Of a stretch of DNA of 42,432 bases, positions 38,018 through 39,927 are shown piece after piece. The position numbers were made by a program, and so were the translations under genes. The notes below the pieces were generated by a model. The model was not told the DNA's origin, ran no database searches, and saw only the letters and a program-made list of their open reading frames with translations. The stretch lies in NCBI GenBank assembly GCA_903905065.1, contig CAIVEW010000090.1, positions 1-42,432 on the forward strand, given 5' to 3'. The number at the start of each line of letters is the position of its first letter. The stretch's first letter is position 1. The stretch is from an uncultured Bacteroidota bacterium. Lineage in GTDB: Bacteria; Bacteroidota; Bacteroidia; Chitinophagales; Chitinophagaceae.

Positions 38018-38587
38018 ATGGACAAACTTTTGCGGGAAGTAAGAAAATGCGTCGTGTGTGCGAAATTCCTGCCCGGTGCACCCAACCCCATTGTCCAGGC
38101 AAGTATCCATTCAAAAATTGTTATTATAGGTCAGGCGCCGGGACAAAAGGTAGATAGCAGCGGGAACCCATGGGACGACCAAAGTGGTAATGAACTAAGA
38201 CGTTGGCTGGGCGTTACAAACGAACAATTCTATGACAGCAAATTATTTGCACTCATCCCGATGGGGTTTTGCTATCCGGGTAAAGGCAAGTCGGGCGATC
38301 TGCCCCCAAGGCCGGAATGTGCCCCACTCTGGCATCACCAGCTATTAGAACGAATAAAAGGAAAGAAACTAACGTTGCTGATCGGGCAATACTCGCAGAA
38401 ATATTACCTGGGGGCGCGATTTAGCCCTACACTGACTGAAAATATAAAGAACTACAAAGAATTTCTCCCCGACTTTTTACCGCTTGTGCATCCATCTCCC
38501 AGGAACAAGATCTGGCAAAAGAAAAATCCGTGGTTTGAACAGGAAATCATTCCCGCATTGCAGCTTATAACGGCCGCTATGCTGTGA
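38018..38587 (+). CDS. Uracil-DNA glycosylase family protein with possible Fe-S cysteines
   Basis: 189 residues. UDG superfamily motifs: GQAPGQKVDSSGNPW (38-52, motif A position) and LVHPSPRN (156-163, motif B). Four Cys in a C11-x2-C14 ... C85-x15-C101 pattern resemble the [4Fe-4S] ligands of family 4 enzymes. Motif A reads GQAPG rather than GEAPG, so the water-activating acidic residue is not in its usual place. A role in excision of uracil or another damaged base from DNA is inferred. Start ATG at 38018; the upstream TTAGATTTATGG is only loosely promoter-like. No operon partner is obvious. Confidence 0.83.
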   Translation: MDKLLREVRKCVVCAKFLPGAPNPIVQASIHSKIVIIGQAPGQKVDSSGNPWDDQSGNELRRWLGVTNEQFYDSKLFALIPMGFCYPGKGKSGDLPPRPECAPLWHHQLLERIKGKKLTLLIGQYSQKYYLGARFSPTLTENIKNYKEFLPDFLPLVHPSPRNKIWQKKNPWFEQEIIPALQLITAAML

Positions 38588-38665: not shown

Positions 38666-39250
38666 ATGACCGAACACGAGATCCTGGCGGAGCATATAAG
38701 GAGACGTATTGCTGCAACAGATGCAGAAATGACAGAATTCCTCTCTTGTTTTAAGCTCACTAAAGTGAGGAAAAGGCAGTATATCATTCAGCCCGGCTTT
38801 GTAGCCCATCACAAAAATTACGTGATCAAAGGCGCTTTCAGGGCTTATGTGGTAGGCGACGAAGGCCAGGACCATACGATACAGATCTCTATAGAAGACT
38901 GGTGGATATCTGACCACAACAGTTACGTGTTTCAAAAGCCCGCGACTATGTTTGTGGAAGCACTTGAAGATGGGGTGATCCTGCAGATACACTATGATGA
39001 TGAAGCAAGGCTGAAAAAGGAATATCATAATTTTGAAACATTTTTCCGGATAATGGCGGAGCGCTCGATGGCCCATATGCAGCGCCGCATCATTACTAAT
39101 CTCACCAAAGACGCCGAAGAACGATATAAAGAGTTTGAAGCGCAGTACCCCGAAATAGTGCAACGAGTGCCTCAGTATGCGCTTGCTTCTTACCTGGGTA
39201 TGAGTACCGAATACTTATCGCGGCTGCGAAATAAGCGGGCTAAAAAATGA
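38666..39250 (+). CDS. Crp/Fnr-family transcriptional regulator
   Basis: 194 residues. N-terminal cNMP-binding-type beta-roll (~25-115): KVRKRQYIIQPGFVAHHKNYVIKG pattern then FRAYVVGDEGQDHTIQISIE, DWWISDHNSY. A dimerisation helix follows (~120-140), then a C-terminal winged-HTH with IVQRVPQYALASYLGMSTEYLSR (~165-187). The cAMP-contacting Arg/Glu signature of Crp is not seen, so the ligand, if any, is unknown. Cys clusters of Fnr are absent. The gene ends (TGA at 39248) inside a TGAAC-N2-GTTCA site, the first of three spaced 23 bp apart before the next gene. The regulator is therefore a good candidate to bind those sites. Confidence 0.9.
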   Translation: MTEHEILAEHIRRRIAATDAEMTEFLSCFKLTKVRKRQYIIQPGFVAHHKNYVIKGAFRAYVVGDEGQDHTIQISIEDWWISDHNSYVFQKPATMFVEALEDGVILQIHYDDEARLKKEYHNFETFFRIMAERSMAHMQRRIITNLTKDAEERYKEFEAQYPEIVQRVPQYALASYLGMSTEYLSRLRNKRAKK

Positions 39251-39305
39251 ACTGGTTCAACTTTTTTTGATGAACCCGTTTATGCTTATTTCCTGATCCA
39301 GTTCA
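39248..39305 (+). promoter_or_regulatory. Three TGAAC-N2-GTTCA-like sites phased at 23 bp
   Basis: TGAACTGGTTCA (39248-39259), TGAACCCGTTTA (39271-39282) and TGATCCAGTTCA (39294-39305): inverted half-sites TGAwC / GTTyA with start-to-start spacing of 23 bases twice. The third copy directly abuts the -33 TTG (39306). The first overlaps the crp stop codon. Interpretation as an operator array is an inference. Confidence 0.6.
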
Positions 39306-39337
39306 TTGGAAACGGCCCTCTCCTGAGGCCATCTTTG
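39306..39337 (+). promoter_or_regulatory. Probable promoter of the AhpD-like gene
   Basis: TTG (39306-39308), 21 bases, CATCTTTG (39330-39337); one mismatch to TAnnTTTG. Confidence 0.5.
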
Positions 39338-39375
39338 CATTGTCAATAACGACTAAAAAACTAAAAAAAAAGACA

Positions 39376-39927
39376 ATGACAAACACAGCAACCAGGACGT
39401 TCAGCGTACCTACACGCGAAGAAGTATCTGCCAATAACCAGGCAATTTTTGACAACTTAAAAAAAGCTATCGGCTTCACACCAAATCTGTATGCGTATTT
39501 TGCAAAAAGTGAGACCGCTCTGGGCGACTATGTAGCTTTCCAGAACCGCAAAAGCACACTGCGTGCAAAGGAACGCGAAGTGATCAACCTGGTGACGAGC
39601 CAGATAAACGGATGTCGCTATTGCCAGAGTGCACATACTGCCATAGGCAAGATGAACGGCTTTACCGATGAGCAGGTACTGGAAATACGCACCGGCGCGG
39701 CATCGTGGGACAGCAAGCTGGATGCACTTGCAAAATTCACTGCCTCGGTAGTAGAAAACAAAGGCCGGGCGACCACCGATTCAAAAGAAGCCTTCTTTGA
39801 TGCCGGCTATACTGAAGCCAATCTTGTAGACGTGGTAATAGTGATAGGCGACAAAATAATAAGCAACTATATTCATAACCTCACCGGTTTCGAAATAGAC
39901 TTTCCTTTGGCCGATGAGCTTGCTTAA
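39376..39927 (+). CDS. AhpD-like peroxidase-related protein (carboxymuconolactone decarboxylase family)
   Basis: 183 residues from the ATG at 39376; a TTG at 39340 would add a Lys-rich leader. Catalytic C80-x2-C83 and His87 (INGCRYCQSAHT), preceded by the helical REVINLVTSQ. This is the redox-active motif of AhpD-type alkylhydroperoxidases and uncharacterised peroxidase-related enzymes. The usual helical bundle extends to ~170 (NYIHNLTGFEIDFP). It probably removes organic peroxides or transfers reducing equivalents, but the partner is not in the window. Adjacent to the Crp/Fnr gene, with a phased operator-like array between; a strong terminator follows. Confidence 0.9.
   Translation: MTNTATRTFSVPTREEVSANNQAIFDNLKKAIGFTPNLYAYFAKSETALGDYVAFQNRKSTLRAKEREVINLVTSQINGCRYCQSAHTAIGKMNGFTDEQVLEIRTGAASWDSKLDALAKFTASVVENKGRATTDSKEAFFDAGYTEANLVDVVIVIGDKIISNYIHNLTGFEIDFPLADELA

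Follow-up and report, generated by a model that had tools for sequence, protein, structure and literature searches.

Putative operators at 23-bp intervals between a Crp/Fnr-superfamily gene and an AhpD-like gene in Bacteroidota

To our knowledge, the operators, targets and signals of Crp/Fnr-type proteins of the Bacteroidota are largely unknown. A locus in an uncultured member of the phylum (family Chitinophagaceae) poses this question in a compact form. In a stretch of 42,432 nucleotides (contig CAIVEW010000090.1 of assembly GCA_903905065.1; referred to below as the window), a gene for a Crp/Fnr-superfamily regulator (38666..39250, + strand, 194 aa) is followed on the same strand by a gene for an AhpD-like protein of the carboxymuconolactone decarboxylase family (39376..39927, 183 aa from the ATG at 39376), and regularly spaced inverted repeats lie between the two. 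What binds these repeats, and which of the two genes do they serve?

The repeats are three sites resembling TGAAC-N2-GTTCA, as the preliminary description of this DNA had proposed. Site 1 (TGAACTGGTTCA, 39248..39259), site 2 (TGAACCCGTTTA, 39271..39282) and site 3 (TGATCCAGTTCA, 39294..39305) are all on the + strand and, read directly, are 23 and 23 bp apart from start to start. The reported overlap of the first site with the regulator gene was also borne out: the TGA at 39248-39250 is both the stop codon and the first three bases of site 1, so the stop triplet doubles as the left end of the operator. An operator started exactly at the regulator stop codon in 42 of 65 homologues (identity of at least 44%). 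Site 3 directly abuts a TTG (39306..39308, + strand), a possible -33 element, and a -7 element of the Bacteroidota TAnnTTTG type, CATCTTTG (39330..39337, + strand), follows 21 bp on, again as described.

The window alone provided a moderate argument for the array. The pattern TGAWCNNGWTCA with at most one mismatch had 14 matches in the window against 4.26 expected, and none of 100 shuffles reached 14. The self-similarity of the three sites was 26; when the intergenic stretch of 135 bp was shuffled 5000 times with dinucleotides preserved, the maximum was 25. The argument is moderate because loose, equally spaced triples of inverted repeats are common by chance, occurring in 4437 of 5000 shuffles of the same stretch. 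The single-site pattern TGAWCNNGWTCA was found at 44 places in the genome of the window, three of them in the window (5249, 39248 and 39294). We used these places to look for a wider regulon and rejected the idea: of the 41 places elsewhere, 15 were examined, and all 15 fell within open reading frames of 100 aa or more and had no partner at 23 or 46 bp. The reversed TGAWCNNGWTCA control (6 places) contains CTAG-like words, and we therefore claim no enrichment from 44 versus 6.

Conservation is a strong argument, and a stronger one than the shuffle statistics. We fetched 110 AhpD loci (30, including that of the window, plus 80), of which 102 remained after identical 400-base stretches were dropped; 99 were counted, leaving out L098, L118 and L129 (less than 200 bp upstream), and L031, with a Crp homologue that is 37% identical, was placed among the loci without the regulator. 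A site pair meant two sites at a spacing of exactly 23 bp, both within 250 bp of the ATG and neither with more than one mismatch to TRAWCNNSWTCA. Among the 99 loci, window included, such a pair preceded ahpD in 31 of 39 with a Crp/Fnr gene nearby versus 2 of 60 without one (Fisher test, 5.6e-16, uncorrected for kinship, which inflates such counts of sequences). With the window and two near copies removed, the pair was present in 28 of 36 Crp-linked loci. Eight of the 39 had no 23-bp pair at one mismatch. A site of any kind (one mismatch, 250 bp) was found in all 39 Crp-linked loci versus 6 of the 60 without the regulator. Random control windows from the same loci gave 0 of 1787. Spacings among the Crp-linked loci were 23 bp in 35 cases and 46 bp in 7. 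Conservation of the sites and their spacing at homologous loci had been chosen beforehand as the test on which the array would stand or fall; both were conserved, which upholds the proposed linkage of a phased array to the neighboring Crp/Fnr and AhpD-like genes.

The sites were also at the ahpD promoter where the gene order differed. This was the case where crp is divergent (L021, L097) and where another gene lies between crp and ahpD (L060, L061, L070); L061 has two ahpD genes, with a site before each. A strict two-site pattern, used with no protein query in two overlapping sets, 197 relatives and 395 genomes of the class, was found at 6 and 3 places, one of them shared. These 8 distinct places were all beside a Crp/Fnr gene, and the reversed pattern gave no places in the same genomes. 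The strict pattern misses many arrays, including that of the window.

The regulator has the architecture of the Crp/Fnr superfamily, with an N-terminal beta-roll and a C-terminal helix-turn-helix of the Crp/Fnr fold. Its AlphaFold model (pLDDT of 93.4) matched best PDB 3dn7, a cyclic nucleotide binding regulatory protein of Cytophaga hutchinsonii, followed by FNR and CRP-type proteins, and also GlxR and NtcA. The matches to FNR and MtbCRP spanned residues 1-194, and the HMM alignment to FNR covered the helix-turn-helix. We know 3dn7 from its structure entry alone, and our literature search found no paper on it. The cNMP-binding domain scored 25.2 bits with PF00027, below the cutoff of 27.5, and the CRP equivalog NF008732 (NCBIfam) scored 20.8 versus 266 bits.

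The sites are compatible with such a protein. The preliminary description had set them apart from the Crp/Fnr pattern, and this was wrong: TGAAC-N2-GTTCA contains TGA-N6-TCA, and both the fold and the HMM alignment place the regulator in the superfamily. The same core is common to the CRP consensus TGTGA-N6-TCACA (as given in an excerpt of PMC2633013) and the FNR consensus TTGAT-N4-ATCAA (as given in an excerpt of PMC1802743).

We found that the recognition helix and the operator vary together. The helix of the window's regulator reads STEYLSRLR, and its Glu182 was aligned by HMM to the glutamate of the FNR motif ETISR, which we take to be the residue that reads the C of TCA in the CRP and FNR structures. 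The comparison covered 61 of 84 Crp homologues, the other 23 having no pair that scored at least 14, with pairs defined on the left half and the center. At position 11 of the proximal operator, C was present in 53 of 55 homologues with Glu182, the two exceptions being L012, a picking artefact, and L002, a distant paralogue from the window's own genome. With Gln or Val at 182, position 11 was G in six of six. The pair of L154 is weak. The Fisher value of 5e-7 is post hoc, as the pattern had first been noticed in these data by eye. With column 182 left out of the tree, the residue changed four times and the operator five, and in the two pairs on supported branches the operator shift had the same direction in nearly all pairings and was reversed in none; with only two to four pairs, this test cannot reach 0.05. 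For the tree test, C was entered manually as the operator state of L012, for which the automatic choice had fallen on the two upstream sites. Glu182 thus appears, in six of six cases and post hoc, to change together with the operator base expected to be its contact.

The position of the proximal site relative to the promoter was nearly constant. Loci were anchored on a proximal site with at most two mismatches, followed 36-45 bp from its start by a TTTG; where several distances tied, the one closest to 40 was taken. This anchored 39 of 41 loci, window included; L101 and L116 lacked a TTTG at the expected position. From the start of the proximal site to TTTG was 39 bp in 23 loci, 40 bp in 15 and 44 bp in one. 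The proximal site had at most one mismatch in 37 of the 39, partly by construction of the anchor. At that stringency, for which the background rate was 0.0008, a site was present at -23 from the proximal one in 30 of 39 loci and at -46 in 8 of 39, neither count being imposed by the anchor; the window has both. In flavobacteria, TAnnTTTG boxes are located at -12 to -5 (PMC9723704), which puts the inferred +1 of the window at 39342 and the centers of the sites at about -42.5 (site 3), -65.5 (site 2) and -88.5 (site 1, an additional upstream site). With +1 placed in this way from the -7 element, the proximal center was at -41.5 in most loci and at -41.5 or -42.5 in 38 of 39. CRP and FNR, when acting as class II activators, are centered about 41.5 bp before the transcription start. 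Given a proximal site near -42 from the inferred start, class II activation of ahpD by the regulator is likely.

Based on the linkage, the co-variation and the promoter geometry, we consider it highly probable that the neighboring Crp/Fnr-superfamily protein is a dedicated local regulator of the AhpD-like gene, acting through TGAwC-N2-GwTCA operators 23 bp apart. A dimer of the regulator would bind the TGA-N6-TCA-type operators between crp and ahpD; the proximal dimer, at about -42 and beside an often poor -33 region, would activate through class II contacts with RNA polymerase, with the dimers at -65 and -88 adding occupancy. Because 23 bp is about 2.2 helical turns, neighboring dimers would be rotated by about 70 degrees and would not be on the same face, and cooperativity between them is only a possibility. 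With less confidence, we propose that the regulator would be turned on by a ligand or stress signal acting in its beta-roll domain, and that the AhpD-like enzyme would remove a reactive compound, be it a hydroperoxide, a quinone or another electrophile.

The same regulator and operators might instead repress ahpD, or switch it both ways, with a proximal dimer lying over the -33 region until the signal releases it. Site 3 abuts the -33 TTG, so that a dimer bound there would overlap the footprint of the polymerase. However, a center at -41.5 or -42.5 is where CRP and FNR bind as class II activators, and the three bases after the proximal site were TTG in only 12 of the 39 anchored loci (TTT in 22), as might be expected of an activator-dependent promoter. 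We regard repression as unlikely, although it deserves to be kept in mind beside the class II activation that we favor.

It is quite improbable that a different regulator binds the array and that crp and ahpD are merely inherited together. Two loci (L068, L089) have the pair and no Crp homologue in the fetched DNA, which would suit such a regulator. But the sites track the Crp gene, being missing from 54 of the 60 AhpD loci without it, and they also occur beside many Crp homologues that are followed by other genes; moreover, the recognition helix co-varies with the operator, and TGA-N6-TCA is the Crp/Fnr register. We give still less credence to the repeats acting as RNA, in the form of a terminator or hairpin in the 3' end of crp or the leader of ahpD. 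The stretch folds better than its shuffles (z of -3.24, with 1 of 200 as good), as expected of an array of mutual inverted repeats. There was no terminator-like site on the + strand and no Rfam match near the gathering score (best E of 0.44), and the inferred ahpD start is downstream of the sites. Where crp is divergent (L021 and L097), the array should be outside any crp transcript, yet the sites persist, and both spacing and letters are conserved beyond what pairing alone would call for.

It is the downstream gene, and not crp itself, that the array appears to serve. We considered autoregulation through the array and found no support for it: upstream of crp, paired sites were present in 0 of 54 homologues with at least 50% identity, and single sites in 5 of 54.

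The operator often persists beside the regulator even when the next gene changes. Among regulator homologues with at least 50% identity, a site was present within about 250 bp downstream in 52 of 56, a pair at 23 or 46 bp in 45 of 56, and the 23-bp pair specifically in 40 of 56. At 44-50% identity, a site was found in 8 of 9 and a pair in 3 of 9; at 36-44%, 7 of 14 had a site and 2 of 14 a 23-bp pair. Families of the next genes were assigned by Pfam, except for L177-L187, which were named by reading the sequences. A pair at 23 or 46 bp preceded genes for MFS proteins (L143, L177, L178, L180, L184-L186), SDR proteins (L161, L167, L181, L182), AhpC/TSA proteins (L162, L166, L176, L187), an FMN-reductase or flavodoxin-like protein (L158), a zinc alcohol dehydrogenase (L164), a pirin (L172), an OYE-like protein (L183) and an NHL-type protein (L152). 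Single sites, with one mismatch, preceded genes for SDR (L151), AhpC/TSA (L157), Flavodoxin_2 (L154), HIBADH-like (L156, L168) and DoxX (L165) proteins. There was no site at one mismatch at the OYE loci L171 and L174 (and L173, named by reading), the FMN reductase locus L170, or the SDR locus L188 (named by reading), where the operator is altered. L160 (52% identity) has the regulator but lacks both a site and a gene downstream on that strand, and at L150 (57%) and L179 (58%) the stop codon bears a site with no target gene close behind.

The genome of the window has seven Crp/Fnr-type genes that matched at an E value of 0.001. At one mismatch, the roughly 250 bp downstream of the paralogues L003-L006 contained no site, and L007 was scanned only as a whole locus. 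Downstream of the closest paralogue (L002, 37% identity, C68:2941-6462 of the same genome) there is a degenerate 23-bp pair, TAATCTACATTA and TAAACCAGGTTA, and the gene behind it reads like an NADP oxidoreductase. This pair makes L002 unsuitable as a clean negative control, and suggests that the architecture is wider than the subfamily to which the window's regulator belongs.

We looked to the protein and to the next genes for the signal. No cysteine column was conserved in 39 regulator orthologues, window included; Cys28 was present in 12 of the 39. This argues against both FNR-type iron-sulphur clusters, for which the cysteines are absent, and thiol switches, and we rejected FNR-type sensing and cysteine redox sensing. 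The preliminary description had suggested a redox or peroxide-response module. Most of the next genes encode oxidoreductases, peroxiredoxin-like enzymes or transporters, so a quinone or another electrophile is a fair guess at the ligand, and peroxide is just one option. We tentatively suggest, with more doubt than conviction, that such loci are portable cassettes found across the Bacteroidota, in which a Crp/Fnr activator without a conserved cysteine travels with its own array (its stop codon often being the first operator triplet), the next gene is swapped (AhpD, AhpC/TSA, SDR, OYE-like, FMN reductase, pirin, DoxX or MFS), and an electrophile or quinone is sensed as a ligand bound directly in a cNMP-type pocket.

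Several known regulators resemble this one in part. MhqR, YodB and NemR, local regulators of electrophile or quinone responses, are MarR/TetR-type repressors. They likewise are beside genes for oxidoreductases or for OYE, AhpD/AhpC or DoxX-type proteins, whereas the regulator described here is of the Crp/Fnr type and probably an activator. The proximal site is near -41.5, as at class II promoters of Escherichia coli CRP. Unlike CRP, which is global, the window's regulator is apparently local, with two or three operators at 23-bp intervals, and its cNMP domain and equivalog scores fall below the cutoffs. It shares with CRP the fold and a TGA-N6-TCA core in the same register, with a half-site of TGAAC versus TGTGA for CRP (from the excerpt of PMC2633013). 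With FNR/FixK-type proteins it shares the core, and its helix (E-x-x-S-[R/K]) aligns to ETISR; it differs in having no conserved cysteine and so no FNR-type iron-sulphur sensor, and the C next to the center in TGAAC is absent from the FNR consensus (in the excerpt of PMC1802743). That excerpt also tabulates an FNR site at 41.5, with an ambiguous reference point, and this value is not part of our argument. We found no account of this regulator-array system in the open-licence PMC literature, in a search that probably missed papers writing Crp/Fnr with a slash. The analysis names together, for one Bacteroidota Crp/Fnr-type protein, a candidate operator, spacing, promoter geometry, target and specificity residue. 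The array would also serve as a rule for reading other such regulator loci, and the swapped target genes as a natural experiment on what the regulator senses.

The probable target is an AhpD-like enzyme of the carboxymuconolactone decarboxylase family, scoring 57.3 versus 23 bits with PF02627 and 47.7 versus 27.8 bits with TIGR00778, and it contains E-x11-C-x2-C-x3-H, presumably the AhpD core motif. It scored 57.5 bits with the peroxidase-related model TIGR01926, below the cutoff of 81.8. The AhpD loci without a Crp gene often had an AraC-type gene nearby (the largest neighbor cluster, 41 of 58, with one member checked by Pfam). Another tandem element, GGGAA-N-TTGCCAAC-like with a 21-bp repeat, was present in 33 of 58 Crp-less loci, a count made without a control; it lies about 100 bp before the ahpD ATG in L074, L078, L085, L094, L130 and others. 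Perhaps the AhpD-type enzyme is under another local regulator in these loci. A third upstream element, GAAAATTGTCCATC...TTCTCCATTTT-like, was seen in L031-L035, which are distant AhpD homologues without the operator.

The window has a short inverted repeat, TGTCAATAACGACT (39341..39354, + strand), at the inferred transcript start. The repeat (TGTCAATAANGACA) starts 3 nt downstream of the TTTG in the -7 element and recurs at exactly this offset, with at most two mismatches, in 29 of 39 loci. Within 90 bp of the ATG, it was present in 34 of 41 Crp-linked (or site-bearing) loci versus 6 of 58 other AhpD loci. This repeat might form a stem at the 5' end of the mRNA or serve as one more operator.

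Two loci, L058 (an Epilithonimonas tenax record) and L059 (a Flavobacteriaceae record), have identical operator regions over the stretch compared. Their AhpD proteins are 80% identical to that of the window and the records are titled as Flavobacteriaceae-type organisms, a likeness consistent with horizontal transfer or record contamination. A gene of the uracil-DNA-glycosylase superfamily, which precedes crp in the window (38018..38587, + strand), is a neighbor in five Crp-linked loci; it is between crp and ahpD in L060 and L070 and recurs in L053 and L054.
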